Source: Myxococcus xanthus (GTDB lineage Bacteria > Myxococcota > Myxococcia > Myxococcales > Myxococcaceae). From it: a stretch of 64,000 bases of DNA. The notes under the pieces are model-generated. The model was not told the DNA's origin, did not search any database, and worked only from the letters and a program-made list of their open reading frames with translations. Position numbers and translations under genes: made by a program. The stretch lies in NCBI RefSeq assembly GCF_900106535.1, contig NZ_FNOH01000004.1:1-64000 (forward strand), written 5' to 3'. Below are positions 26,262-62,670 of the stretch, in pieces; the stretch's first letter is position 1; the number at the start of each line of letters is the position of its first letter.

Positions 26262-29200
26262 ATGACGGAAGACGTTGAAGGGCTTGCGGATTCGCCAGAC
26301 ATCGCGGTGGTGGGGATGGCCGCGCGACTGCCTGGAGCGCGCGATGTGGACACGTTCTGGCGCCGCGTGCGCGACGGCGTCGAGTCCGTCACGCACTTCA
26401 GTGACGCGCAGCTCCTGAGCGCGGGCGTGGACCCGGCGCTGCTCCAGGACCCGAACTACGTGAAGTCGGGCATGGTGTACGAGGGCCTGGAGGACTTCGA
26501 CGCGGGCTTCTTCGGCTTCAGCGCGCGCGAGGCGTCCCTCATGGACCCGCAGCACCGCCACTTCCTGGAAGTGTGCTGGGAAGCGCTGGAGCACAGCGGC
26601 CATCCGCCGGAGCGGTTCAAGGGGCCCGTCGGCGTGTTCGGCGGCTCGGGCATGAACGCGTACATGCCCTACAACCTCTTCACCAACCCGCAACTGATGG
26701 AACAGGTGGGACTGTTCCTCGTGCGGCATACGGGCAACGACAAGGACTTCCTCACCACCCGTGTCTCGTATTGCCTGGACCTGCGCGGGCCCAGCCTCAA
26801 CGTGCAGACGGCGTGCTCCACGTCGCTCGTCGCCATCCACTCCGCCTGCCAGAGCTTGCTGGCGCGCGAGTGCGACCTGGCGCTGGCGGGCGGCGTCACG
26901 CTGGAGCTGCCGCACTACCGCGGCTACCTGTACCAGGAGGGAGAAATCCTCTCACCGGACGGGCACTGCCGCGCGTTCGACCACCGCTCCCAGGGCACGC
27001 TCTTCGGCAGCGGCGCGGGCGTCATCGTGCTGCGCCGCCTGGAGGACGCGCTGGCGGATGGCGACACCATCTACGCGGTGGTGAAGGGCAGCGCGGTGAA
27101 CAACGACGGCGCGCGCAAGGTGGGCTACCTGGCGCCGTCCGTGGACGGGCAGGCGGACGCCGTCGTGGAGGCGCTCAACGTCTCCGGCATCAGCGCCGAC
27201 TCCATCGACTACATCGAGTGCCACGGCACCGGCACGCCGGTGGGCGACCCGATTGAAATCACCGCCCTCACCCAGGCCTTCCGCACGCAGACGCAGAAGA
27301 GCGGGTTCTGCCGCATCGGCTCGGTGAAGACGAACATCGGCCACCTGGACACGGCCGCGGGCGTGGCGAGCTTCGTCAAGGTCGTCCAGATGCTGCGCCA
27401 CAAGCAGATGGCGCCCACGCTGCACTTCGAGAAACCCAACCCACAGATCGACTTCGCGCGCTCGCCCTTCAGCGTGAACGCCGCGCTGCGCGACTGGCCC
27501 GCCGCCAAGGGCCGGCCACGCCGGGCGTCGGTGAACTCGCTGGGCGTGGGTGGCACCAACGCGCACGTCATCCTGGAGGAGGCGCCCGCGCAGCCGCAGA
27601 CGTCCGCCGCGCGTCCCTTCGAAACGCTGTGGCTGTCCGCGCGCACCCCCGCCGCCCTGGAGCGCGCCGCCCAGCGGCTGGCCACGCGGCTGGGTGAAGC
27701 CGACGCGCCCAACCTGGGTGACACCTCGTACACCCTGCTCGAGGGCCGCCGCCGCTTCGCGCATCGCCGCGCCGTGGTGGCATCGTCCCGCGAGGACGCC
27801 GTGCGCCTGCTGTCACAGCCAGAGGCCGCACGGACGGCCCAGGCACAGACGGAGGCGGAGGGCCGCTCCGTCGTCTTCCTCTTCCCGGGCGGCGGCGCGC
27901 AGTACCCGGGCATGGCGAAGGGTCTCTACGAGCAGGAGCCCGTGTTCCGCCGCGCGCTGGATGAGTGCCTGTCGCTGCTCGAACAGCACCAGTCGTTGAA
28001 GCTGCGGCCCCTGCTCTTCCCGGAGGCCGGCGCCGAGAAGGAAGCGCGCGCCCAGTTGGAGCAGGCCACGTACGCGCTGCCGGCGCTGCTGTCCGTGGAG
28101 CTGTCGCTCGCCGCGCTGTGGAAGGCGCGTGGCCTGACGCCGCAGTCCTGCATGGGCCACAGCATGGGCGAGTACGCCTGCGCGCAGCTCAACGGCGTTT
28201 TCTCCGTGAAGGACGCGCTGGGCATCGTCGCCTGCCGTGGCCGCCTCTTCGACCAGCTCCCCGCCGGCGCGATGCTCAGCGTGGAGATGCCCGAGGCGGA
28301 GCTGAAGCCGCTGCTGGGCGAGGGCCTGGACCTGGGCGCGCACAACGCGCCGGGGCTGTGCCTCGTCTCCGGTGAAGTGGCCGCCATCGAAGCGCTGGAG
28401 GCCCAGCTCAAGGCTCGCGAGGTGGAGGCGCGGCGGCTGCACATCCGCGTGGCCGCGCACTCGCGCATGCTGGAGCCCATCCTCGCGCCCTTCCGTGAGT
28501 TCCTGGGCACGGTGCGCTTCACCAAGCCCACCGGCCCGTGGATCTCCAATGTCACCGGGACATGGGTGACGCCGGAGGAGGCCACGTCGCCCGACTACTG
28601 GGTGCGGCACCTGCGTCAGCCGGTGCGCTTCGCCGAGGGCGCGGGCGTGCTCCTGGCGGACAAGGCGCGTGTCTACCTGGAGGTCGGCCCTGGCCAGACG
28701 CTGACGCAGTTGCTGCGCGCCCAGGTAGAGAAGCCGCAGGCCGAGCAGTTGGTGCCGTCACTGCGGCACCCCAACGACACCGTGGCGGACCTGGCGTTCT
28801 TCCAGCTCGCGCTCGGCCGCCTCTGGGCCGCGGGCGTGGACCTGGACGCCGCCGCGCTCTTCGATGGCCAGAAGCGGCGCCGCGTGGCGCTGCCCACGTA
28901 TGCCTTCGAGCGCGAGCGCCACTGGGTGGAGCCAGGCAGTGGCACCTTCATGGCGCGGCGCGAGGGTGAGCGCCCGCTGGTGCGTGAAGAGAACGTGTCG
29001 CGCTGGGGCTACGTGCCGCGCTTCCGCGAGCAGGCCGGCGCGGCGCCGGAGGCACCAACGGAGAACGAGCGCTGGCTCCTCGTGGGCGAGCAGCACCTGT
29101 TGCTTAGCGAGCTGGCTCGCGAGCTGTCGGCGCGCGGCGCCCAGGTGATGCGCGTGCTGCCGGGCGATGCCTTTGGCCGCGCGGACGAGGGGCACTTCAC

Positions 29201-32200
29201 CCTGCGGTTCGACGCGCGCGAGGACTGGGAAGCGCTCTGGGATGCGCTGGGCGCCGAGGGGCGCGTGCCACCTCGCATCGTGGACATCACCAGCCGGGAC
29301 AAGGCCCCGCTGGGTTGGGAACTCGCGGTGTCGCGGTACTTCCTCACGCCGCTGGCGCTGATGCAGTCCCTGACCTCCGAGTCGCTGCCTCCGGGCCTGC
29401 GCTACATGCGGGTGACCCAGGAGGCCCTGCCCGCCGAAGGACACGCCACGAGCCCGGAGCAGGCGCTCAGCTTCGGTCCGCTGCTCGTGGGCCCCAAGGA
29501 GCTTCCCGAGCTCAAGGCCCGCGTGGTGGACCTGCAACTGGTGGTCAACGTGATGGGCCAGGCGCGGGAGCTCGCGGACGAGCTGCTGCGCCCGGACGTC
29601 GAGGCGCCGGTGGCGCTGCGCGGTGGACGCCGGCTGGTGCAGGTGATGGAGCGGACGGCGCTGGACGAGGGCCCGACGCCGCTGCGTGAGCAGGGCGTCT
29701 ACCTCATCACGGGCGGCCTGGGCGGCATCGGCCGCACGCTCGCCGAGCTCTTCGCTCGCAAGGTGAAGGCCCGGCTCGCGCTGGTGTCGCGGTCGGCGGC
29801 CAGCGCGTCGCACGCGGAGCTTCAGCGCACGTTGGAAGGACTTGGCGCGCAGGTGCTGCTGCTCAAGGCGGACACCACCGACGCCGGCCAACTGCGCGCG
29901 GCCATCGCCCAGGTGCGGGAGCGCTTCGGCGCCTTGCATGGCGTGGTACACGCGGCGGGCACGCTCGAGGACGGGCCGCTGGAGGCGAAAACGCGCGACT
30001 CGGCCCTGCGGGTGCTCGCGCCCAAGGCGATGGGGGCGCTCGCGCTGGAAGAAGCGCTGCAAGGCGCGGCCCTGGACTTCTTCGTCAGCTTCGCGTCGAC
30101 GAGCGCGTGGCTTGGGCCCCCGGGGCAGGTGGACTACGTCGCCGCCAACGCGTACCTGCTGGCGCAGGCGACACGGCTGGAGGCCACGGGCATCGCGAAG
30201 CGCGCACTCGCGTTGGGCTGGGGCGTCTGGCAGGAGGTCGGCATGGCCGCGGCGCAGCTCGCGCCGCAGTTGCCGCCCGGCGAGTCCGTCATCCACCCGC
30301 TGCTCCAGCGGCGCGTGGAGGCCCCCGAAGGGCACCACGTCTTCCGCGCCATCTACGACGCGAAGGCCCACTGGGTGCTGGATGAGCACCGGATGCGCGG
30401 CGGAGGCCCCGTCCTCCCCGGCACGGCCTATGTCGAGCTGGCCCGCGCCGCCTGGGCGCTGGCGCGTCCTGGCGAGCCGCTGGAGTTGTCGCAGCTCTCG
30501 CTGGTGTCACCGCTGGACGTCCCGGACGGCGAGGTACGGGAGGTGGAGATCGGGCTGGCGCCGGAGGGCGACGGCTTCACCTTCCGCGTGCGCAGCCGCG
30601 CGGCCGGAAACGCATGGACGGAGCACGCCACCGCGCGGCTCCACCAGGCCACGGGCCAGCGTCCCACGGCGCTGAACGTGTCCGCGGCGAAGGTTCGCTG
30701 TGGTGAGCGGCCGCTGACCTTCGGCGAGGGTGAGCAGTCCCTGCCGCAGGACGCGCTCATCGCGTTCGGTCCACGCTGGAAGGTGCTGCGCAGCGCGGGC
30801 TTCGGCACGTCCGAGGCCCTGGGCCGTCTGGAGCTGCCCGCCGCCTACCGCGAGGACCTGTCGACGTACGGGATTCCGCCCGGGCTGCTGGACATCGCCT
30901 CCGGCTTCGCCTTCTCCCTGCTCCCCGACGCGGGACAGCCGGGGAAGCTGCACGTGCCCGTCTCCTACCGGCAACTCCAGGTCTGGGGCCCCTGGCCCCA
31001 GGTGGCGCTGAGCCACGTCCGCGTGCGCCAGGAGGAAGGCCGCGGGGCGCTGCTCGACGTCACGCTCACCGACACGGACGGGAATGTCTTCTGCGCCATC
31101 GAGGGCTACCTCGTCGCGTCCGTCGAGGCGCGGCGTTTCGGCCGCTCGCCGCAGAAGAAGGGCTCACTGCTGGAGAGCTGGCTGCCTTTGGGCATCAAGC
31201 CAGCGGAAGGTCAGGACGCCTTCCTGCGCGCGCTGTCCCTCGAGGACACGCCCGCGCTCTTCGTCAGCTCCATGGACCTGCACACCCTCGCGGCCCGCAT
31301 GCGCCCGAAGCAGGAGGCGAAGCCCGCGGCGGCGGCGGCGGCCACGGCCCAGGCAGGCGCGCCGTCCGGTGTGGCGGCCGCGGACGCACCGCGCGACGAC
31401 GTGGAGCGCAAGCTGGCGGAGCTGTGGCAGCAACTGCTCGGTGCGCCGAAGGTGGGGCTCAAGGACAACTTCTTCGAGCTGGGCGGACACTCGCTCATCG
31501 CGGTGCGCCTGTTCGCGCGCATCAAGAAGACGCTGGGCGCGGACCTGACGCTGGCCACGCTGTTCGAGGCTCCCACGCTGGAGCAGTGCGCCGCGCTGGT
31601 GCGTGAGGCCGCCGGGATTCCCTTCACGCCGGACGCGGGTCCGGGTGACGCGGCGCCGGCTGCGCAGGCCCCGGGCGTCAAGGCGGTGCCGAAGAGCTGG
31701 TCTCCGCTGGTCACCATCCAGAAGGGCGGCAATACCCTCCCCTTCTTCTGCGTGCACGGCGCGGGCGGCAACGTCCTCAACTTCCGCGAGCTGGCGCAGA
31801 CGCTCGGCAAGGAGCAGCCCTTCTACGGGCTCCAGGCGCGTGGCGTGGACGGCAAGCTGCCTCCGGCCGACAGCATCGAGGAGATGGCGTCCATCTACCT
31901 GGAGAGCATCCGTCAGGTGCAGCCCCACGGGCCCTACCTGCTCGGCGGCTACTCCGGCGGCGGCGTGGTCGCCTACGAAATAGCGCAGCGGCTGCACGCG
32001 CTGGGCGAGCCGGTGGCGCTGGTCGCGTTCCTGGACACCTTCCACCCGTCCACCCAGGAGCGACGCCAGTCCCTCCATGAGCGCCTGCGGGAGCTGCGCC
32101 GGGAGGGCGCGGCCAGCTACGTCAGCCGGAAGCTGCGCACCAAGGTGGAGCGCGACGGCACCCGGCTGTTGAGCCAGCTCAAGCTGCGCTGGTACGAGCA

Positions 32201-32528
32201 GCGGGGAGAAGCGCTGCCCATCGAGCTGCGCAACCTCCAGCTCACCGAGCGCTTCCAGGCCCTGGCAAGCCGCTACGTCCCCAGCCCCTACGCCGGTCCT
32301 GTGACGCTGTTCCGCGCGCAGGAGATTCACGCCATCTACGCGCACATGGGCACCAGCCTGGGCTGGGAGCCGCTGGTGCCGGCGCTGAACATCCGCGAGG
32401 TGCCGGGCGACCACGACAGCCTGGTGCGCGAGCCCAACGTCCATGTCCTGGGGCGGCTGCTCCGCGAAGCGCTGGACGATGCACAGCGCGGCACGCGTGA
32501 CGAGGCGCGCCGGGTGGGCACGAAGTGA
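26262..32528 (+). CDS. Type I polyketide synthase module KS-AT-KR-DH-ACP-TE
   Basis: 2088-aa single module. Domains by residue: KS about 13-435 with the active Cys (C185, TACSTS) and both His motifs (ECHGTGT, NIGHLD); AT about 530-830 with S634 in GHSMGEYA and VAAHS in place of the usual HAFH or YASH specificity box; an ill-defined linker; KR about 1145-1320 (ITGGLGGIGR, Y1292 in GQVDYVAAN); DH about 1345-1620 with H1376 and D1544, the HxxxG motif carrying one extra residue before the Pro; ACP about 1705-1780 (S1744 in GGHSL); TE about 1820-2085 (S1898 in GYSGGG, H2051). KR before DH reverses the common order. No N-terminal docking helix is obvious. As it ends in a TE it should be the releasing module, although it is encoded before the NRPS. 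A hydrolase gene overlaps its stop codon. Confidence 0.93.
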   Translation: MTEDVEGLADSPDIAVVGMAARLPGARDVDTFWRRVRDGVESVTHFSDAQLLSAGVDPALLQDPNYVKSGMVYEGLEDFDAGFFGFSAREASLMDPQHRHFLEVCWEALEHSGHPPERFKGPVGVFGGSGMNAYMPYNLFTNPQLMEQVGLFLVRHTGNDKDFLTTRVSYCLDLRGPSLNVQTACSTSLVAIHSACQSLLARECDLALAGGVTLELPHYRGYLYQEGEILSPDGHCRAFDHRSQGTLFGSGAGVIVLRRLEDALADGDTIYAVVKGSAVNNDGARKVGYLAPSVDGQADAVVEALNVSGISADSIDYIECHGTGTPVGDPIEITALTQAFRTQTQKSGFCRIGSVKTNIGHLDTAAGVASFVKVVQMLRHKQMAPTLHFEKPNPQIDFARSPFSVNAALRDWPAAKGRPRRASVNSLGVGGTNAHVILEEAPAQPQTSAARPFETLWLSARTPAALERAAQRLATRLGEADAPNLGDTSYTLLEGRRRFAHRRAVVASSREDAVRLLSQPEAARTAQAQTEAEGRSVVFLFPGGGAQYPGMAKGLYEQEPVFRRALDECLSLLEQHQSLKLRPLLFPEAGAEKEARAQLEQATYALPALLSVELSLAALWKARGLTPQSCMGHSMGEYACAQLNGVFSVKDALGIVACRGRLFDQLPAGAMLSVEMPEAELKPLLGEGLDLGAHNAPGLCLVSGEVAAIEALEAQLKAREVEARRLHIRVAAHSRMLEPILAPFREFLGTVRFTKPTGPWISNVTGTWVTPEEATSPDYWVRHLRQPVRFAEGAGVLLADKARVYLEVGPGQTLTQLLRAQVEKPQAEQLVPSLRHPNDTVADLAFFQLALGRLWAAGVDLDAAALFDGQKRRRVALPTYAFERERHWVEPGSGTFMARREGERPLVREENVSRWGYVPRFREQAGAAPEAPTENERWLLVGEQHLLLSELARELSARGAQVMRVLPGDAFGRADEGHFTLRFDAREDWEALWDALGAEGRVPPRIVDITSRDKAPLGWELAVSRYFLTPLALMQSLTSESLPPGLRYMRVTQEALPAEGHATSPEQALSFGPLLVGPKELPELKARVVDLQLVVNVMGQARELADELLRPDVEAPVALRGGRRLVQVMERTALDEGPTPLREQGVYLITGGLGGIGRTLAELFARKVKARLALVSRSAASASHAELQRTLEGLGAQVLLLKADTTDAGQLRAAIAQVRERFGALHGVVHAAGTLEDGPLEAKTRDSALRVLAPKAMGALALEEALQGAALDFFVSFASTSAWLGPPGQVDYVAANAYLLAQATRLEATGIAKRALALGWGVWQEVGMAAAQLAPQLPPGESVIHPLLQRRVEAPEGHHVFRAIYDAKAHWVLDEHRMRGGGPVLPGTAYVELARAAWALARPGEPLELSQLSLVSPLDVPDGEVREVEIGLAPEGDGFTFRVRSRAAGNAWTEHATARLHQATGQRPTALNVSAAKVRCGERPLTFGEGEQSLPQDALIAFGPRWKVLRSAGFGTSEALGRLELPAAYREDLSTYGIPPGLLDIASGFAFSLLPDAGQPGKLHVPVSYRQLQVWGPWPQVALSHVRVRQEEGRGALLDVTLTDTDGNVFCAIEGYLVASVEARRFGRSPQKKGSLLESWLPLGIKPAEGQDAFLRALSLEDTPALFVSSMDLHTLAARMRPKQEAKPAAAAAATAQAGAPSGVAAADAPRDDVERKLAELWQQLLGAPKVGLKDNFFELGGHSLIAVRLFARIKKTLGADLTLATLFEAPTLEQCAALVREAAGIPFTPDAGPGDAAPAAQAPGVKAVPKSWSPLVTIQKGGNTLPFFCVHGAGGNVLNFRELAQTLGKEQPFYGLQARGVDGKLPPADSIEEMASIYLESIRQVQPHGPYLLGGYSGGGVVAYEIAQRLHALGEPVALVAFLDTFHPSTQERRQSLHERLRELRREGAASYVSRKLRTKVERDGTRLLSQLKLRWYEQRGEALPIELRNLQLTERFQALASRYVPSPYAGPVTLFRAQEIHAIYAHMGTSLGWEPLVPALNIREVPGDHDSLVREPNVHVLGRLLREALDDAQRGTRDEARRVGTK

Positions 32529-33367
32529 GAGGGGCGCGCTTCAGGGTGAACCAGCGCTTCCCGCTGGTCACAGCCGCCGTGCTGGCGGTGGGGATACTCA
32601 TGGTGGGGTTGACTCGAGACGACGCGGATCTCCCGGGCCCGTTCCCCTACACCGGCGCGCCCCTATCGGCGGAGGAACGGGCGCGCCTGGCCTCGGAGGG
32701 ATGGACGGTGACAGGCCCCGACGCGCCGCCCAGGCTCGTCGCCTTGACGCGGCCGCCCTCCGCGGGTGAGACGCGGTGGCTGGTGTACTTCGGCGGCAAC
32801 ACCCCGGGGTACCTCGCGGAGGCGAAGTCCGTCCTGCTCTCGCTGGACGAAGGCCGTGGGCTCGGGCTGGCCGCCATCGCGCCCCCCGGCTTCGACGGCT
32901 CGCCGGGCAAGCCCTCCCCCGAAGCACTCCGTGACAGCGCCGCGAGCGCCATGCGCTGGCTGACGGAGACACATCCTGCCGCGGCGCAGGACATCCACCT
33001 CGTGGGCTTCTCCATGGGAACCATGTCGGCGCTCGCGGCGGCCCACGCGCTTCGGGCGCAGGAGACGCCCGCTCGGAGCCTGGTGCTGTTCGCGCCGTTC
33101 CAGGCGATGAAGGTGGGGCGCATGGGGCTCATCGGCAGCCTCGTCGGGCGGCACCGGTACGACAACCAGCCGCTGCTGCAACCCAAGCGACTCCCGCCCG
33201 CGCTCGTGCTGCATGGAGGCGCCGACAGCGCGCTGCCCCCCGTCCAGGGCGAGCGCGTCAGCCGTGGGCTTCGCGCTCCCCTCAAGACGTACCCCGGTAT
33301 CGGTCACGCCGAGCTTTTGAAGCATCCCCCCGCGCTCGCCGACGCCCGGCAGGGCCTGGGCTTGTGA
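32525..33367 (+). CDS. Membrane-anchored alpha/beta hydrolase in the biosynthetic operon
   Basis: 280 aa starting at a GTG that overlaps the PKS stop codon (GTGA), so translation is coupled. An N-terminal hydrophobic segment (FPLVTAAVLAVGILMVGL) suggests a membrane anchor or uncleaved signal. The fold shows the nucleophile elbow GFSMGT, LHGGADSALPP supplying a probable acid, and GIGHAEL supplying the His. It resembles the peptidase/lipase-type serine hydrolases. It could edit stalled chains, release or modify the product, or act in export or self-protection. The NRPS gene follows 40 bp later. Confidence 0.82.
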   Translation: MRGARFRVNQRFPLVTAAVLAVGILMVGLTRDDADLPGPFPYTGAPLSAEERARLASEGWTVTGPDAPPRLVALTRPPSAGETRWLVYFGGNTPGYLAEAKSVLLSLDEGRGLGLAAIAPPGFDGSPGKPSPEALRDSAASAMRWLTETHPAAAQDIHLVGFSMGTMSALAAAHALRAQETPARSLVLFAPFQAMKVGRMGLIGSLVGRHRYDNQPLLQPKRLPPALVLHGGADSALPPVQGERVSRGLRAPLKTYPGIGHAELLKHPPALADARQGLGL

Positions 33368-33407: not shown

Positions 33408-36400
33408 ATGAGCGCGGCTCCGGAGTCGCCCAACTGTTTCATCATTGGCGAGGGCACCCTCGTCGTTCCCTGTGCACAAGCCCTCACCGAGCGCGGCGTC
33501 CGGATTCTCGGGCTCGTCACGCGCGAGCCCGCGCTCCAGAAGTGGGCGGAGGAGCAGGGCGTGCCGCACGTGCCGCCCGGCGAGCAGGCCCTGCCCTTCC
33601 TGTCCCAGGCGCCTTTCGACTGGCTCTTCAGCATCGTCAACCTGAGCATGGTGAAGGACGAAATCCTGCGCCTGCCCCGGCGCATGGCCATCAACTTCCA
33701 TGACGGCCCGCTGCCCCGCTACGCCGGACTCAATGTCACGTCGTGGGCGCTGCTGAACCGGGAGCCTCAGCACGGCGTCACGTGGCACGAGATGACGAAG
33801 GGCGCGGACGAGGGCCGCATCCTCAAGCAGCGCCTCTTCGACATCGCCCCCGGTGAGACGGCCTTCAGCCTCAACGCCCGCTGCTACACGCTGGGCATGG
33901 AGACCTTCGCGGAGCTCGCGGAAGAGCTGGTCGCGGGCACGTCCGAGGCGAAGGAGCAGGACTTCGCGCAGCGCAGCTACTTCGGCCTCGCGCAGCGTCC
34001 GGAGGCCGCGGGCGTCGTCGACCTCCACGGAGACGTGGACGTGGCGCACGCGCTGGTATCGGCGCTCGACTACGGCGGCTACCCCAACCCGCTGTCCTTC
34101 GCGAAGGTCTGGCTGGGCAACGGGCCCATCGCCATCTCCGAGGCCCGCCGCGCCGAGCCGGCATCCGAGTCCGCCCCGGGCACCGTGCTCGACATCGAGG
34201 GTGACGCGCTGACGGTGGCGCTCCAGGGCGGAGACCTCACGCTGAAGGGCCCCAAGGGGCTGTGCGGCGCGCCGCTGTCATGGGCCGACGTGCTCGGCGC
34301 TCGAATGCTTGCCCGGGGTGACGCCCTGCCCGCCGCCGCTCCGGAGCTGCGCGCCCGGCTGACCGAGGTGGGCACGCAGGCGGGCAAGGCGGAGTCGTTC
34401 TTCCTCCGTCGCCTGGAGACGCTCGCGCCACCGGACCTGTCCTTCCTGGGCGGCAGCTCCAAGGACGTGGGGACGCACACACTGAAGTTCGAGGCCAGCG
34501 ACCTTACCCCAGGCTGGGTCACGGACCTGCCTCCCGAGGAGCGGCTGCTCTTCACCGCCATGGCTTTCCTGGCGCGCCTGTCCCCCGAGCCCCGCTTCGA
34601 CGTCGGCTACGCGGATGCGTCCACGCGCGCCCACATCGAAGGCGTGGAAGGCTTCTTCGCCTCGCAGCTCCCGCTGCGCATCGAGCTGCCGATGAAGGAT
34701 GCGCCGGAGCAGGCCGCGGGTGCCTTCCGCAAGGCGCTGACGCAACTGCGCGACAAGGGCGTGCTCGCGCGCGACGCCCTGGGCCGCTCCGCGCAGCTCT
34801 CCAACCTCCAGCGCCACGGCGGCGAAGTGGCGTATCCCGTCGCGCTGCGCATCGGAGCGGCGAACCCCGCCGTGGGTGGCGCGGCGCTCGTCATTGACGT
34901 GGACGCGCAGGGCCGACACGCCCACCTGCACTTTGATGCCACGCGCGTGGACAAGGCCCGCGTGGACGACGTGGCGCGGCAGCTCAACGCGTTCCTCGCC
35001 TCGCTCCGGGACGCGCCGGGCAAGGCGGTGGGCGAGCATGACCTGCTGGGCGCGGAGGAGCGCCAGTTGCTGGCCCGGTGGAACGACACGCGGCGGGACT
35101 TCCCCCGCGACGCCACCCTGGCCTCGCTCTTCCAGGCCCAGGCGCGGCGCACGCCGGACGACACCGCGCTCATCTGCCGGGGCACCTCGCTGACCTACCG
35201 CGAACTGGACGCGCGCGCCGAGGTGCTCGCACGGCACCTGCGCGGCGCGGGCGTGGGCCGCGACGTGCGCGTGGGCATCTTCATGGAGCGCTCGCTGGAG
35301 ATGATGGTGGGCGTGCTGGCCACGCACAAGGCGGGCGGCTGCTACGTGCCGTTGGACCCGGCCTATCCCGCCGAGCGCATCGCTTTCATGGAGGAGGACG
35401 CGGGCTGCCACCTGGTGCTCACCCAGGAGCGGCTGCTGTCGCGCGTGCCGTCCGCGGCGAAGGCCGTGCTCGCGGTGGACCAGCAGTGGGAGCGCATCGC
35501 CGCCGCGCCGGAGGCCCAGACGCCGCCGGCCACGCCGGACAGCCTGGCCTACGTCATCTACACCTCGGGCAGCACGGGCAAGCCCAAGGGGGTGATGATT
35601 GAACACCGCAACGTCGTGAACTTCGGCGTTGGCATGGACGAGCGCTTGGGCACGGAGCGCGGCACCTGGCTGGCGGTGACGAGCCTCAACTTCGACATCT
35701 CCGTGCTGGAGCTGCTCTGGACGCTCACGCGCGGCTTCACGGTGGTGCTGCACGCGGAGCGGCACGACACGGCGCAGGCCGGCAAGCACGCCTCGCGCGC
35801 CATGGAGTTCAGTCTCTTCTACTTCTCCAGTGATGAAGGCGAGCGTCCCGAGGGACGCTATGACCTGCTCATGGAGAGCGCGCGCTTCGCGGACACGAAC
35901 GGCTTCTGCGCCGTGTGGACGCCGGAGCGGCACTTCCACGCGTTCGGCGGACTCTTCCCCAACCCGGCGGTGACGTCGGCCGCGCTGGCGGCGGTGACGC
36001 GCAACGTGCAGCTTCGCGCCGGCAGCCTCGTGTCGCCGCTGCACCCCACGCTGCGCATCGCCGAGGACTGGTCCGTGGTGGACAACATCTCCCACGGCCG
36101 CGTGGGCATTTCGTTCGCCGCGGGCTGGCAGCCCAACGACTTCGCGCTGCGTCCGGAGACCTTCCCGGACCGCAAGCGCATCATGTTCCAGCAGATTGAA
36201 GACGTGCGCCGGCTATGGCGTGGCGAGGCGCTGGAGACGAAGAGCGGCACGGGCCACACCGTGAAGCTGCGCACCCTGCCCCGCCCGGTGCAGAAAGAGC
36301 TGCCCATCTGGGTCACCACCGCGGGCAACCCGGAGACCTTCGAGGAAGCGGCGCGCGCGGGCTGCCACGTCCTCACCCACCTGCTGGGCCAGTCGGTGGA

Positions 36401-38075
36401 AGAGGTGGCGCAGAAGATTGCCCTCTACCGGGAGACGTGGGCCAAGGCCGGCCACCCCGGCAAGGGCACCGTGTCGCTGATGCTGCACACCTTCGTCGGT
36501 GACTCCGAGGCTTCCGTGAAGGAGGTCGTCCGCGAGCCGATGAAGTCGTACCTCAGGTCGTCGGTGGGCCTCATCAAGGAGGCGGCCTGGAGCTTCCCGG
36601 CCTTCAAGGCGCAGACGACGCTGGCCAACGGCAACTTCGGCACCGACCACCTGTCCGCCGAGGAGATGGACGCGCTTCTCGACTTCTCCTTCGAGCGCTA
36701 CTTCCAGTCCTCCGGCCTGTTCGGCAGCGTGGATGCGTGCGTCGCGCTCGTGGACCGGCTCAAGGGACTGGACGTGGACGAGATTGCCTGCCTCGTGGAC
36801 TTCGGTGTGCCCACGGAGCTGGTGATGAAGCACCTGCCGCTGCTGGCCGAGGTGCGCCAGCGCGCCAACTCGGGCGTGGGCCAGCCGGGCGCCGAGCCCG
36901 AACTCGACGGCTCCATCCCCGCGCTGATGGAGCGTCACGCGGTGACGCATCTCCAGTGCACGCCGTCCCAGGCGAGCATGCTCCTGGCCGAGGAGCGCTC
37001 GCGCGAGGGCCTCAAGCGGCTGAAGAAGATGATGGTGGGCGGCGAGGCCTTCCCCGTCCCGCTGGCGCGACAGCTCTCCGAGACGGTGTCCGGCGACGTC
37101 ATCAACATGTACGGCCCCACCGAGACGACCATCTGGTCCTCCACGCACCCGGTGAAGAACGTGGGCGAAGGCGTCCCTATCGGTACGCCCATCGCGAACA
37201 CGCAGTTCTACATCCTGGATGCGCAGCAGCGTCCGCTGCCCATTGGCGCGGCGGGTGAGCTGTACATCGGCGGCGAGGGCGTGGTGCGGGGCTACCACCA
37301 CCGTCCGGAGCTGGACCGCGAGCGCTTCGTGCCGGACCCGTTCTCCTCCCAGCCAGGCGCGCAGATGTACCGCACCGGTGATGCCGCGCGGTGGAGGCAC
37401 GACGGTCTGGTGGAGTACATCGGCCGGCTGGACCACCAGGTGAAGGTGCGCGGCTTCCGCATCGAGCTGGGCGAAATCGAATCCCGGCTGGGCGAACACC
37501 CCGCGGTGCGGGAGACGGTTGTCATCGTCCGCGAGGACATCCCGGGCGACAAGCGGCTGGTGGCCTACCTCATCGCGAAGCCGGGCGAGCCGCCCGCGGC
37601 GGACGCGCTGCGCGAGTTTCTGCGCACGAGGCTGCCCGAGTACATGGTGCCGCAGTCCTTCGTGACGCTGAGCACCTTCCCCCAGACGCCGAACAAGAAG
37701 GTGGACCGCAAGGCCCTGCCACCTCCGGAGCAGGCGCAGGCGCGCGGTGAGCTGGTCCGGCCGGAAGGCGAGACGGAGGCGCTGATTGCCAGCATCTGGC
37801 AGGACGTGCTCAAGCTCGACAAGGTCGGCGTGGAGGACAAATTCGTCGACCTGGGCGGCCACTCGCTGCTGATGGTGCAGGTGCTGGAGAAGCTCAAGGC
37901 CCAGGTGGAGAAACCCCTCACGCTGGTGGACCTGTTCCGCTACCCCACCATCCGCACCCTCTCCGGGTTCCTGTCGGGTGACAGCGGCGAGGAAGAAGCG
38001 CTCAAGGAAGTCGCGGCGCGCGGTGAGGCCCGGGCCGCGGCTCGCCGGGCGATGCAGCAGCGCCGCCGCCGGTAG
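33408..38075 (+). CDS. NRPS: formyltransferase, half C domain, A domain with embedded luciferase-like monooxygenase, PCP
   Basis: 1555 aa, start after AGGAGG. Residues 1-310 are a formyltransferase with N96, H98 and D134, the same spacing as the catalytic Asn/His/Asp of Fmt. About 340-580 resembles only the second half of a condensation domain, with no HHxxxDG. The A domain starts near 590: A3 YTSGSTGKPKG (718-728), A4 FDISVLE (762-768). A flavin luciferase-like monooxygenase of the MupA/Atu3671 type fills about 799-1150 (MEFSLFYFSSDEG, AVWTPERHFHAFGG, GISFAAGWQPNDFALRPE). The A domain then resumes with A5 NMYGPTETT, A7 YRTGDAARW, A8 and A10. My reading of the pocket is DILQMGMIWK, close to the glycine code DILQLGLIWK. 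PCP Ser is S1486. The C terminus is Arg-rich. Similar insertions between A4 and A5 occur in the glycine modules MtaG/MelG. Confidence 0.93.
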   Translation: MSAAPESPNCFIIGEGTLVVPCAQALTERGVRILGLVTREPALQKWAEEQGVPHVPPGEQALPFLSQAPFDWLFSIVNLSMVKDEILRLPRRMAINFHDGPLPRYAGLNVTSWALLNREPQHGVTWHEMTKGADEGRILKQRLFDIAPGETAFSLNARCYTLGMETFAELAEELVAGTSEAKEQDFAQRSYFGLAQRPEAAGVVDLHGDVDVAHALVSALDYGGYPNPLSFAKVWLGNGPIAISEARRAEPASESAPGTVLDIEGDALTVALQGGDLTLKGPKGLCGAPLSWADVLGARMLARGDALPAAAPELRARLTEVGTQAGKAESFFLRRLETLAPPDLSFLGGSSKDVGTHTLKFEASDLTPGWVTDLPPEERLLFTAMAFLARLSPEPRFDVGYADASTRAHIEGVEGFFASQLPLRIELPMKDAPEQAAGAFRKALTQLRDKGVLARDALGRSAQLSNLQRHGGEVAYPVALRIGAANPAVGGAALVIDVDAQGRHAHLHFDATRVDKARVDDVARQLNAFLASLRDAPGKAVGEHDLLGAEERQLLARWNDTRRDFPRDATLASLFQAQARRTPDDTALICRGTSLTYRELDARAEVLARHLRGAGVGRDVRVGIFMERSLEMMVGVLATHKAGGCYVPLDPAYPAERIAFMEEDAGCHLVLTQERLLSRVPSAAKAVLAVDQQWERIAAAPEAQTPPATPDSLAYVIYTSGSTGKPKGVMIEHRNVVNFGVGMDERLGTERGTWLAVTSLNFDISVLELLWTLTRGFTVVLHAERHDTAQAGKHASRAMEFSLFYFSSDEGERPEGRYDLLMESARFADTNGFCAVWTPERHFHAFGGLFPNPAVTSAALAAVTRNVQLRAGSLVSPLHPTLRIAEDWSVVDNISHGRVGISFAAGWQPNDFALRPETFPDRKRIMFQQIEDVRRLWRGEALETKSGTGHTVKLRTLPRPVQKELPIWVTTAGNPETFEEAARAGCHVLTHLLGQSVEEVAQKIALYRETWAKAGHPGKGTVSLMLHTFVGDSEASVKEVVREPMKSYLRSSVGLIKEAAWSFPAFKAQTTLANGNFGTDHLSAEEMDALLDFSFERYFQSSGLFGSVDACVALVDRLKGLDVDEIACLVDFGVPTELVMKHLPLLAEVRQRANSGVGQPGAEPELDGSIPALMERHAVTHLQCTPSQASMLLAEERSREGLKRLKKMMVGGEAFPVPLARQLSETVSGDVINMYGPTETTIWSSTHPVKNVGEGVPIGTPIANTQFYILDAQQRPLPIGAAGELYIGGEGVVRGYHHRPELDRERFVPDPFSSQPGAQMYRTGDAARWRHDGLVEYIGRLDHQVKVRGFRIELGEIESRLGEHPAVRETVVIVREDIPGDKRLVAYLIAKPGEPPAADALREFLRTRLPEYMVPQSFVTLSTFPQTPNKKVDRKALPPPEQAQARGELVRPEGETEALIASIWQDVLKLDKVGVEDKFVDLGGHSLLMVQVLEKLKAQVEKPLTLVDLFRYPTIRTLSGFLSGDSGEEEALKEVAARGEARAAARRAMQQRRRR

Positions 38076-38152: not shown

Positions 38153-40402
38153 TTACGCCTTGCCTCGGCGGGCCATGTGCTGCCCGGTCAGCGAGCGCGG
38201 GTGCGCGGCGAGCTGAGCCGGAAGTCCTTCGAAGACGACCTGTCCGCCCTCATGCCCGGCGCCGGGCCCCAGGTCGATGACCCAGTCCGCGCGGGACACC
38301 ACGTCGAGGTTGTGCTCGATGACGATGACCGTCGACCCGGCATCCACCAACCGGTCGAACAGGCCAATCAACGTGTCCACGTCGTTCATGTGCAGTCCCG
38401 TGGTGGGCTCATCGAGCACGTAGATGTTCCCAGAACGGCCCAGCTCCGCGGCGAGCTTCAACCGCTGGCGCTCACCGCCCGACAGCGTTGACAGCGGCTG
38501 CCCCAGCGTGAGGTAGCCGAGCCCGACGTCATCCAGCCCCTGGAGGATTTTGGCGATCGCCGGTTCGGTGAAGAAGGCCACCGCGTCACTGACGGCCATC
38601 TCGTAGACGTCGCTGATGGACTTGCCGCGCAGCCGGTGCGCCAGCACCTCCTCGGTGAACCGCTTGCCCTCGCACGTCTCGCAGACGGTCACCATCGGGT
38701 CCAGGTGCGCCAGGTCCGTGTAGATGACGCCCAGGCCACTGCAGTCCGGGCAAGCACCCTTCGAGTTGGCGGAGAACAGCGCGGCATCCACCTTGTTCGC
38801 CTTGGCGAAGGCCTTGCGGACGTTGTCGAGGATGCCGGTGTACGTGGCGGTGTTGGAGCGGCGCGAGCCCCGAGCCAGGTTCTGGTCGATGATGATGGTC
38901 TCCGGGTACGCCTTGGGCAGGCAGCCCTGAATCAGCGACGACTTTCCCGAACCCGCCACGCCCGTCACCACCGTGAGCACACCTCGCGGAATCGAAACGG
39001 ACAGGTCCTGGAGGTTGTTGAGCCGGGCGCCCTTGATTTGAAGCTGCCCCGTGGGCTTTCGAGGCGTGGTCTTCAGCGGCTGGTGCTTCTTCATGTGGTT
39101 GCCCGTGAGCGTGCCCGAGGTCAGCAACCCCTCGTAGGTGCCCTCGAAGACGACCTGTCCACCCTTGTTGCCGGCCTTGGGCCCCATGTCGACCACATGG
39201 TCCGCAATGGCAATCATGTCCGGCTTGTGCTCCACGATGAGCACGGTGTTGCCCTTGTCGCGCAGTTGCTGCATCAGGCCCGCGAGCCGACCTACGTCGT
39301 GCGGGTGGAGCCCCACGCTGGGCTCATCGAAGATGTACGTCACATCGGTGAGGCTGGAGCCCAGGTGCCGCACCATCTTCACCCGCTGGCTCTCTCCACC
39401 CGACAGCGTCGAACTCTCGCGGTCGAGGCTGAGGTACCCCAGGCCAATGGTCACCAGGTTGTCGAGCCGGTGGGCCAGGGCCTCCAGCATGGGCCCCACG
39501 GACGGAGCGGCAATCTTCCGGACGAACGCGGCGAGGTCCGACACCTGCATCGCGGAGCACTCCGCGATGCTCTTCCCCTGGATGTGGCTGCCGAGCGCTG
39601 CCTGGTTGAGCCGCCCACCCTTGCAGGAAGGGCAGGTGGCTCGGGTGAAGATGCGCTCGTATTCGGCGCGGACGTGCGGCTGGACCGTCTCAGGGTCCTT
39701 GGCACCCAGCGTCCGGCGCAGCTTGGGGACAAGGCCCTCGTAGGTGAGGTTCATCTTGTCGAGCTTGATCTTCCGGCCGTCGTCCAGGTGGAGGAGCTTC
39801 TCCATCTCCTCCTTCGTGTACTTGGACAGCTTCTTGTCGACGTCGAAGAAGCCCGAGCGTGCGTAGATGGCCCAGTACCAACTGTCGACCGCATAGTCCT
39901 TGGGCAGGATGGCGCCCTCATTGAGGGACTTGGACTTGTCGATGACGGCGTCCATGTCCATGGACGCGACCTGACCGATTCCCTCGCACTCCGAACAAAG
40001 CCCCCGAGGGTCGTTGTAGGAATAGAAGCCCGGACTGCCCAGGTGCGGCTCGGCGAGGCGTGAGAACACCACGCGGAGCATCTGCGCGGCGTCGGTGACG
40101 GTGGCGACCGTGGAGCGTGAGTTCCCTCCCAGCCGCTGCTGGTCCACGATGATGGCCGCGGAGATGTTCTCCAGGCTCTCCGCGTCCGGCTGGCCGTAGT
40201 GCGGCATGAACTGTTGCACAAAGGCCGGATAGGTCTCGTTGATGAGCCGCTGGCTCTCAGCCGCGATGGTGCCGAAAACCAGGGATGACTTGCCCGAACC
40301 CGAGACGCCCGTGAAGACCGTGATCTTCCGCTTGGGGATGTCGAGCGAGACATTCTTCAGGTTGTTCTCGCGTGCCCCGCGAATCTTGATGGAGCCGTAC
40401 AT
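38153..40402 (-). CDS. UvrA-like ABC ATPase lacking the UvrB-binding domain
   Basis: 749 aa from the ATG at 40402, with AAGGAGAGG upstream. Two ABC modules are present: Walker [11 protein letters not shown] and [10 protein letters not shown], signature motifs LSGGESQRV and LSGGERQRL, Walker B ending [10 protein letters not shown] and [10 protein letters not shown]. Zinc-knuckle Cys pairs occur at CSEC/CPSC and CPDC/CETC. Canonical UvrA is about 940 aa. Here the text runs from [17 protein letters not shown] almost straight to [14 protein letters not shown], so the UvrB-binding region is missing. That form is known from drug-resistance proteins such as DrrC of the daunorubicin producer. It faces the biosynthetic operon convergently and diverges from a TetR gene, so self-protection or drug response is likely, though not shown. 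Confidence 0.88.
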
Positions 40403-40493
40403 GATTGGCCTCTCCTTAGAGTGACGCCCTGCCCGCGGACGCGGCACGTCCACGAACAGGCTTCCCGCAAATCGCTCGACATCTTTTCAGCTA

Positions 40494-40568: not shown

Positions 40569-41348
40569 ATGAGCGACGAGATTTCCGGTCGGGGCGACCC
40601 ATTGAAATCACTGCAGTTGCTATGGGGACGAACCGAGGCACCGAAGCGCGGCCCGAAGGCGAAGGCCAGCGTCGCGGAGCTGGTGTCAGCCGCCGTCACC
40701 ATCGCGGATGCCGAGGGGCTCGAAGCGGTCAGCACGCGCCGCGTCGCGGAGGCAGTGGGCATCTCCCCCATGTCGTTCTACACGCACATCCCCGGCAAGG
40801 CCGAGCTGTTGGACTTGATGATGGATGTCGTGTCCGGCGAAATCCTGAAGGACCGGCCCGTCTTCAAGCCCGCCGACTGGCGCGCCAACCTGACGCGGGT
40901 GGCGACGGACTATCGCGACTTCTACCTGGCCCACCCGTGGGTGATTCCACTCGCGACCCACCGCACTGTGCTGGGCCCGAACACCTTCCGTTCCGCAGAC
41001 ATCGCGTTGAGCGCCATTGAAGGCCTGGGGCTCACGGACCTCGAGATGGACCGGATCATCACCCTGGTCCTCGACTACGTCCACGGCGCGGTCCGCAACG
41101 CGGCCCGGGAAAAGATGGTCAAGGACCTGACCGGCATGACGGACGAGGAGTGGTGGTACCGCGTCGCCCCCTTCCTCGAAACCATCGACTTCACGCCCTA
41201 CCCCGTCCTGTCCCGCGTCGGGAAGACCGCGGGAGAGACCTACGGGGCACACGACCCCAGGGGGGCGTTTGCCTTCGGTCTCGAGCGAGTGCTCGATGGA
41301 CTGGCGGTACTCATTGACGGAAAGGCACCGGGAAAGAAGCGGCGCTGA
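40569..41348 (+). CDS. TetR-family transcriptional regulator
   Basis: 259 aa. The helix-turn-helix lies at about residues 35-85 (LVSAAVTIADAEGLEAVS, TRRVAEAVGISPMSFYTHI), with the C-terminal ligand-binding domain of the TetR_C_1 type suggested by WRANLTRVATDYRDFYLAHPW and LDYVHGAVRNAA. The first 30 residues (MSDEISGRGDPLKSLQLLWG) form the short leader seen in this subgroup. It is divergent from the UvrA-like gene and probably represses it and itself, with the ligand perhaps being a drug-like compound. Confidence 0.9.
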   Translation: MSDEISGRGDPLKSLQLLWGRTEAPKRGPKAKASVAELVSAAVTIADAEGLEAVSTRRVAEAVGISPMSFYTHIPGKAELLDLMMDVVSGEILKDRPVFKPADWRANLTRVATDYRDFYLAHPWVIPLATHRTVLGPNTFRSADIALSAIEGLGLTDLEMDRIITLVLDYVHGAVRNAAREKMVKDLTGMTDEEWWYRVAPFLETIDFTPYPVLSRVGKTAGETYGAHDPRGAFAFGLERVLDGLAVLIDGKAPGKKRR

Positions 41349-61908: not shown

Positions 61909-62670
61909 ATGTTCAATTCGGTCATCGAGCGGCAGCGGGCTGGACGTATTGGCACGGGCGTGTGGGTGTCCATCGCCCTGCATGCGGCCCTGTTCGGGGC
62001 GGTGCTCTTCATCTCCGCGAGGCCGCCGGGTCCCAGCGAGCCTCCGGAGCCGAAAGAGTTGGTGCTCCGCGTGGCGCAGCTCCCGCGCGTGGCGAAGGGC
62101 TCCCCCGCCCCGGCGCAGCCGAAAGCAGCCACCGCGCCACGCCCTCGCCCGCGCAACCGGGACCGCGTGCCCGCGCGCGTGCCGCCGCCGGTGGTAGACG
62201 CGCCGCCCAAGCCGGTGGAAGCGGTGGCGAGCACCGACACCAGCACCTCGACGGACGAGGTGGCGGACGACCCGGGGACTGGCGTGCCGGGTGGGCATCC
62301 GGAGGGCTACAAGGATAGCAACGTGATTGGCGTGCAGTACGTGCCCGGCCTGGTCCCTGGGCAGGAAGCCACGGGCACCGACATCATGCCCTTTGGCCAG
62401 GGCATGTCACCGCCCAGACTGATGGGAAACCCGGGCATCGAGTACACGCACCAGGCGCTCGCCGCCCGCGTGGAGGGCACCATGATCGCCAAGTGCGTCA
62501 TCACGGTGCGCGGCGACGTGACGGACTGCCGCATCATCAAGGGCCTGCCTCACATGAATGAGGCCGTGCTCGATGCGCTCCACGCCCGACGCTACACCCC
62601 GGTGCAGTTCCAGGGCCGGACGGTGAGCGTGTCCTACGTGTTCACCCTGCGGCTCAAGCTGCCGCGCTAG
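61909..62670 (+). CDS. TonB C-terminal domain protein (energy transducer)
   Basis: 253 aa, ATG after GAGGGAGG. Layout is that of TonB: an N-terminal membrane anchor (GVWVSIALHAALFGAVLFIS), a Pro/Arg-rich periplasmic linker (about 45-115), and a C-terminal domain at about 185-250 (MIAKCVITVRGDVTDCRIIKG, VLDALHARRYTPVQFQGRTV, SYVFTLRLKL). It would couple the proton-motive force (with ExbB/D partners not in the window) to outer-membrane receptors, or serve another envelope machine as in many myxobacterial paralogues. Confidence 0.88.
   Translation: MFNSVIERQRAGRIGTGVWVSIALHAALFGAVLFISARPPGPSEPPEPKELVLRVAQLPRVAKGSPAPAQPKAATAPRPRPRNRDRVPARVPPPVVDAPPKPVEAVASTDTSTSTDEVADDPGTGVPGGHPEGYKDSNVIGVQYVPGLVPGQEATGTDIMPFGQGMSPPRLMGNPGIEYTHQALAARVEGTMIAKCVITVRGDVTDCRIIKGLPHMNEAVLDALHARRYTPVQFQGRTVSVSYVFTLRLKLPR

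Follow-up and report, generated by a model that had tools for sequence, protein, structure and literature searches.

Oxygenases that reside within glycine-activating adenylation (A) domains have been described as C-alpha hydroxylases (PMC10204066, PMC11342130). In MtaG and MelG, which belong to the myxothiazol and melithiazol pathways, the available text of PMC10204066 places such a monooxygenase between motifs a4 and a5 of a glycine A domain. The initiation modules of conglobatin (CongA) and linear gramicidin synthesis consist of a formyltransferase (FT), an A domain and a peptidyl carrier protein (PCP), and in conglobatin a predicted glycine is followed by PKS extension, as far as the accessible part of PMC4504003 describes it. 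Here, we analysed a window of 64,000 nucleotides from Myxococcus xanthus (assembly GCF_900106535.1, contig NZ_FNOH01000004.1, positions 1 to 64,000), which encodes an NRPS that shares features with both kinds of system. An FT and the relic of a condensation (C) domain precede a probable glycine A domain containing a luciferase-like monooxygenase (LLM), and a PCP follows (Table 1). The original prediction that no characterised product combines an FT with a glycine A-monooxygenase has held up, in that we recognised no characterised product of an FT-A(LLM)-PCP protein in the open-access literature searched. Likewise, we did not find the FT, the glycine-oxidising A domain, a PKS partner and a polysaccharide context described together in that literature. 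Our main reading, to which we assign a probability of roughly 55%, is that the NRPS provides the starting half of a conserved assembly line of two proteins, which takes glycine to a short acyl product.

Table 1. Features of the NRPS locus, in window coordinates.
Feature	Position	Strand	Remarks
Partner PKS, KS-AT-KR-DH-ACP-TE	26262..32528	+	2088 aa
Alpha/beta-hydrolase	32525..33367	+	280 aa, hydrophobic N-terminal segment
NRPS, FT - C-domain C-terminal lobe - A (likely Gly, LLM inserted) - PCP	33408..38075	+	1555 aa, intact frame with ATG start
Formyltransferase domain	33408..34337	+	aa 1-310; N96, H98, D134 conserved
C-domain C-terminal lobe relic	34383..35093	+	aa 326-562, without HHxxxDG; profile match
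A domain, part one	35100..35777	+	aa 565-790, through A4
Luciferase-like monooxygenase (TIGR04020)	35796..36860	+	aa 797-1151, between A4 and A5
A domain, part two	36915..37727	+	aa 1170-1440, A5-A10
Peptidyl carrier protein	37770..37982	+	aa 1455-1525, Ser1486
Short UvrA-like protein	38153-40453	-	beside NRPS, divergent from regulator
TetR-type regulator	40569-41348	+	divergent from UvrA-like gene
TonB_C protein	61909-62670		24 kb from NRPS

The domain map is drawn from several sources. Pfam recognises Formyl_trans_N (aa 83-167), AMP-binding in two stretches (the best at 575-787), Bac_luciferase (799-1121), AMP-binding_C (1356-1431) and PP-binding (1460-1522), and the second piece of the A domain matches the NCBIfam model AA-adenyl-dom (1170-1372). 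The LLM is inserted between FDISVLE (D763) and NMYGPTE (N1233), and aa 801-1150 match TIGR04020 over the entire model (1-341 of 341) with 519 bits against a curated cut-off of 244.45. A half-C profile built from 10 rows hit three condensation-domain proteins in their C-terminal part (best-domain E of 8e-14, 1e-11 and 3e-8) in a database of only four sequences, the fourth of which, the Deinococcus PKS end, gave no match. The HHxxxDG motif of condensation domains is absent from this region, and the Pfam scan and the half-C profile revealed neither a TE nor a chain-accepting C domain in the protein. N96, H98 and D134 of the FT, which we take to be its catalytic residues, are invariant in all 10 aligned rows, and so is Ser1486 of the PCP. 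The same holds for the LLM stretches WTPERHFHAFGG, GWxPxDF and AGNxxT, presumably the flavin contacts. The LLM is predicted to be an FMN-dependent oxygenase. Structure models gave no usable fold, with a mean pLDDT of 43 for aa 1-575 (eight close sequences) and 33 for aa 559-1535 (six close sequences).

The pocket code of the A domain, as read from a 24-row alignment that includes three non-FT modules from Myxococcus genomes, is DILQMGMIWK, its tenth residue (K1431) being taken from the 10-row alignment, where it is invariant. This code is identical in the other five Myxococcus/Pyxidicoccus-type rows, and all 24 rows read DILQ-x-GM-(I/V)-W, in which x is M, L, F, A or C. Four glycine-activating A domains with a MOX have DILQLGMIWK in common, according to the part of PMC12283262 at hand; since our code is only one residue apart from theirs, the A domain likely activates glycine. 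The original prediction had read the protein as FT - half C - A(monooxygenase) - PCP with this same code and with glycine as its substrate. Pfam, NCBIfam and the half-C profile bear out the order, the 24-row alignment and K1431 agree with the code, and the near-match to DILQLGMIWK supports the substrate; the flavin motifs, whose possible loss had been raised, are conserved across the aligned rows together with those of the FT.

Selection was assessed as dN/dS between the window NRPS and five of seven close loci, for six regions in each comparison. The domains gave values of 0.06-0.45, except in one PCP comparison without amino acid changes (L010). The LLM (0.06-0.15) had the lowest value of the six regions in four of the five comparisons and the lowest among the large domains in all five. 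The C-lobe relic had the highest value in three comparisons and shared it with the first A part in a fourth, and the first A part was highest in the L011 comparison. Among the Myxococcus relatives the LLM is the most constrained large domain and is no decaying insert. Given this range of dN/dS and the presence of a full-length gene in 16/27 Myxococcus genomes, the NRPS is not a chance arrangement.

Beyond Myxococcus the protein has many relatives. A query made of the FT and half-C regions matched 23 of 195 Myxococcota genomes at E<=1e-40. In 18 of these nearly the whole query was matched, by frames of 1481-1808 aa (16 Myxococcus genomes, G046 and G182), and the other five matched the FT part only, in frames above 14,000 aa. 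Some match was present in 3103 plasmid records, 18 of which cover at least 80% of the query: H1-H17, all alphaproteobacterial, do so at 88-98% coverage and 39-47% identity, and the eighteenth is probably H27 (80%). Six further plasmid matches fall into two sorts within the stretches examined: H27 has an FT (34%) and no LLM match, and H19, H20, H22, H26 and H32 have an LLM without an FT match. Deinococcus (H18) has a split version, with the FT encoded by its own gene immediately upstream. The architecture is not unique, rare or new: full-length relatives occur in alphaproteobacteria and in other Myxococcota, and TIGR04020 is a named family. Because the oxygenase family already bears a name in public databases and the whole FT-A(LLM)-PCP architecture is widespread, the protein represents no new kind.

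A tree of 29 LLM rows, selected from 42 sequences that included 16 near-identical Myxococcus copies, separated all 18 FT-type rows from 10 other Myxococcus LLMs and PuwE by a branch with support 93/93. In a 23-row tree with 11 FT-type rows, to which five plasmid LLMs without an FT had been added, the grouping was kept in the best tree at a support of 57/90, and firm support (96/95) was limited to a core that unites the window and G182 with the main rows from alphaproteobacteria. Since the support falls in this way once FT-less LLM rows are present, the FT-type module likely, though not firmly, goes back to a single origin. The idea that the FT is an invariable companion of the LLM was set aside, as the FT-type loci had themselves been retrieved with FT-containing queries. 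G021 carries two further FT plus half-C frames (G021:C2:151428-152771 and 172905-174581; 633 and 999 aa), which are 31-34% identical to the window protein. A record titled Comamonas sp. KCTC 72670 (L011) holds a Myxococcus-like locus, 93% identical and in the same gene order, and its title is probably wrong.

The NRPS is accompanied by a PKS. The PKS stop and the hydrolase start share 4 bases, a gap of 40 bases separates the hydrolase from the NRPS, and the hydrolase lies between PKS and NRPS in 7/7 related loci. The KR-DH segment of the PKS was found at E 0 and 79-100% identity in exactly those 16/27 Myxococcus genomes that have the NRPS, on the same contig, and four of the 11 genomes without it have only weaker matches (37-41% identical). 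Of the 17 alphaproteobacterial loci, 12 were read (H2, H3, H9, H15 and H16 being left out as near duplicates), and the PKS adjoins the NRPS in every one, with a gap of 22-1027 bases in 11. The rhizobial locus L082 has a broken PKS frame, of which the surviving part lies 1943 bases from the NRPS, and in Aliiroseovarius (L078:22489-31737) the PKS and an additional NRPS module form one protein of 3082 aa. Deinococcus and G182 also have the PKS beside the NRPS; the G046 contig starts 1.5 kb before the NRPS and so stands outside this count. In the reverse check, 17 of the best 19 PKS records (H41-H59) proved to be the records of H1-H17. The other two, H48 and H56, are not among the full-length NRPS matches, and the H48 record ends near the PKS. 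The original prediction had treated the NRPS alone; it was right about the domains and overlooked both the PKS and hydrolase next door and the polysaccharide genes around the relatives.

Across 18 aligned PKS rows the residues that we take to be catalytic are conserved in the KS, AT, DH (His, Asp) and ACP, and the presumed TE triad is conserved in 17, the exception being Deinococcus. What we assume to be the nucleotide motif of the KR is degenerate in four rows and is without its last Gly in two others (L039, L079). The degenerate motifs are those of the rhizobial relatives L038, L076, L081 and L083, and read TGGLGDLA or SGGLSEIA. The Deinococcus PKS (L040:20108-26770) ends in a C-type domain (HHLAADA) in place of a TE, so that its chain may be released onto an amine.

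A short UvrA-like gene stands on the other side of the NRPS. A close copy (92-100% identical) is present in 12/16 NRPS-bearing Myxococcus genomes and in 0/11 of those without the NRPS, which have a homologue at 57-59%; this pattern speaks for a link to the NRPS or for shared descent. In 9 of the 12 genomes the copy is no more than about 5.4 kb from the NRPS, and in the other three (G004, G021, G026) it is distant or on a different contig. Of the four NRPS-bearing genomes without a close copy, G015 has no match and G001, G011 and G016 have matches of 58-59% only. The gene was not found in the available flanks of L012, L013 and L015. Self-resistance conferred by the UvrA-like gene is conceivable, but a fixed place of the gene in the cluster is not supported, given that the copy is distant in 3/12 genomes and lacking in 4/16.

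The surroundings of the NRPS-PKS pair outside Myxococcus are rich in polysaccharide genes. We counted EPS-type genes by hand (glycosyltransferases, sugar transferases, flippases, O-antigen ligases, and polysaccharide biosynthesis or export genes) and set a threshold of at least four. This number was present in 8/9 annotated loci outside Myxococcus versus 2/9 stretches of similar size from the same replicons, Aliiroseovarius being the exception with one glycosyltransferase at the locus edge. The two EPS-rich control stretches are those of Aliiroseovarius and Ruegeria SCSIO 43209, and the latter adjoins the NRPS/PKS locus on a small EPS plasmid. By tblastn, 3/4 unannotated loci have 3-9 EPS-type genes, and the Methylobacterium locus gave none in this search of low sensitivity; its negatives are weak, as it returned two hits in the Aliiroseovarius control stretch where annotation lists far more. 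Both of the other Myxococcota have polysaccharide genes near the pair. In G182, which has the PKS-hydrolase-NRPS order of Myxococcus and a hydrolase homologous to the Myxococcus-type ones (E 5e-4 to 8e-9), genes for a WecG-type transferase and a UDP-GlcNAc epimerase directly follow the NRPS, and the G046 locus has GT4, Wzy_C and FemAB-like genes. The total outside Myxococcus is thus 13/15 loci, from which Tateyamaria (H48), with EPS-type genes of its own, is left out because the NRPS lies outside the record stretch. In Myxococcus, tblastn, with its limited sensitivity, found EPS-type genes near the pair in 0/8 stretches, and a Pfam scan of 27 window proteins and 12 flank proteins (L012, L015) recognised no polysaccharide gene except a polysaccharide lyase in L015. 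The polysaccharide link is strong for the relatives and indirect for the Myxococcus window. Shortly after the NRPS, Ruegeria and Parasedimentitalea encode homologous proteins (L037:23306-24244 and L075:22596-23492), 51% identical to each other, that match DUF4886 weakly (E about 0.01) and are possibly a pathway esterase.

From the observed domain order, intact motifs, pairing, genomic context and purifying selection we infer the elements of a pathway, namely its substrate, each chemical step, the extender, the number of cycles, the product and the destination of that product. The A domain would activate glycine and load it onto the PCP, and the FT would then formylate the glycyl amino group to yield an N-acyl-glycyl thioester like that oxidised in MtaG and MelG. 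In this respect the FT may supply the N-acyl group that is supplied by the upstream chain in MtaG. The embedded FMN monooxygenase would hydroxylate C-alpha, after which the unit would pass from the NRPS to the KS of the neighbouring PKS for addition of one malonyl-type unit, reduction and dehydration, and the PKS thioesterase would release a short acyl product. The NRPS is placed first, as the starter, and the PKS second because the former is without a working C domain and the TE is on the latter. We rejected the opposite order, with the PKS before the NRPS, since the catalytic portion of a C domain is missing from the NRPS. The product made in alphaproteobacteria and other Myxococcota would probably be part of, or attached to, extracellular polysaccharide. 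The Myxococcus unit would stand alone, and its hydrolase is probably either anchored or exported.

How the oxygenase would act on glycine admits more than one reading. The original prediction had offered two outcomes, of which C-alpha hydroxylation fits the precedent of the family and N-hydroxylation finds no support in the chemistry described. The latter would give N-formyl-N-hydroxyglycine, an iron-binding hydroxamate, and the elements required (formyl group, nitrogen and oxygenase) are indeed present; however, the LLM-family reactions described in the available portions of the literature are C-hydroxylation, chain cleavage and epoxidation, and neither siderophore uptake or synthesis genes nor an N-monooxygenase gene were recognised among the 27 window proteins scanned, the TonB_C protein lying at a distance. 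We therefore regard the hydroxamate as very improbable. It is also improbable, if less extremely so, that formylglycyl-PCP and malonyl form a 5-substituted oxazole with the LLM oxidising the ring or the extender: conglobatin has been proposed to start from an N-formylglycine passed to a PKS, but the accessible text of PMC4504003 treats the mechanism of oxazole formation as not itself established, and a KR and DH with conserved motifs, as in our PKS, would remove the ketone needed for cyclodehydration. Within the preferred C-alpha hydroxylation, the N-formyl-alpha-hydroxyglycyl-S-PCP could collapse, so that formamide leaves, glyoxylyl-S-PCP primes the PKS and the formyl group serves as a traceless cap. 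Such a course is consistent with MtaG and MelG, where the insert is also at a4/a5 and hydroxylation is followed by amide loss to a glyoxyl thioester (PMC10204066, PMC11342130, in the parts available), with the solanimycin enzyme, which keeps alpha-hydroxyglycine and has its insert between a8 and a9 instead (PMC10204066, likewise), and with the proximity of the pocket code to those of the four MOX-bearing domains (PMC12283262, excerpted text). Collapse is not automatic, however, given that alpha-hydroxyglycine is retained in solanimycin and skyllamycin (PMC10204066, same portions), and no sequence feature examined separates retention from collapse. We consider this branch unlikely, and no description of formyl as a traceless cap that primes a PKS with glyoxylyl was found in the literature searched.

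A separate question is whether the product of the Myxococcus copy is a small molecule that is secreted free and has nothing to do with polysaccharide, an idea that is compatible with the first half of our explanation. The 0/8 Myxococcus stretches with EPS-type genes nearby, in a tblastn search of limited sensitivity, point this way, as do the two replicons on which the control stretch is EPS-rich too. On the other side stand the seven other annotated replicons, with at least four EPS-type genes around the pair versus at most one in the control stretch, and G182, whose Myxococcus-type gene order leads directly into the WecG and epimerase genes. A free product is quite possible for Myxococcus, though the odds are somewhat against it. 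Returning to our own explanation, its widest form would be a dedicated NRPS-PKS line of two proteins, present in no fewer than three phyla, whose small acyl unit, derived from glycine, becomes attached to extracellular polysaccharide, the traceless formyl cap being the boldest version; we put this forward tentatively and think it rather doubtful. The domain combination is common in annotations, and it is the PKS and the polysaccharide context that turn it into a testable proposal, in which assembly-line enzymes would make a glycan substituent. Moreover, with one amino acid, one cap and one oxygenase, the NRPS offers a compact system in which to study what decides between survival and fragmentation of an alpha-hydroxyglycyl thioester.

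The Myxococcus NRPS differs from MtaG and MelG in that its FT replaces the N-lobe of the C domain, it has no TE, and its expected place is at the start of a chain, not at the end. Contig C8 of the window genome encodes a 2191-aa protein (L066:8346-14921, minus strand) that reads acyl-ligase-like - PCP/ACP - C - A(Gly code, LLM) - PCP with no TE, and for which, by the logic of MtaG, fatty acid amides could be the released product; 21/27 Myxococcus genomes have similarly matching frames of 2155-2251 aa, the domains having been scanned in L066 only. A C-A(LLM)-PCP-TE protein of G010 is a candidate MtaG, but the frame neighbouring it matches NRPS A domains, unlike the neighbour of mtaG, which we take to be a PKS. 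The CongA and gramicidin modules differ from ours in that the available part of PMC4504003 mentions no A-domain monooxygenase for them, and the FT of LgrA matches that of the Myxococcus NRPS weakly (10.5 bits). The oxygenase domain of PuwE from the puwainaphycin pathway (6ket) is the best solved relative of the LLM, at 376 bits over nearly its whole length, but it is located between a PKS and an NRPS module and, in the excerpted account, is proposed to tailor a fatty acyl chain to a 3-amino-2-hydroxy acid. By gene context the loci outside Myxococcus may be likened to those of WcbR and RkpA, type I PKSs encoded with capsular polysaccharide biosynthesis and export genes, for which the accessible descriptions mention no NRPS partner. 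Finally, the alphaproteobacterial proteins annotated as 'MupA/Atu3671 family FMN-dependent luciferase-like monooxygenase' share both the full-length architecture and the PKS neighbour, but are 39-47% identical to the Myxococcus NRPS; in place of the hydrolase their loci have a glycosyltransferase gene (five of eight annotated) or none, and in four of the eight a PPTase gene directly follows.
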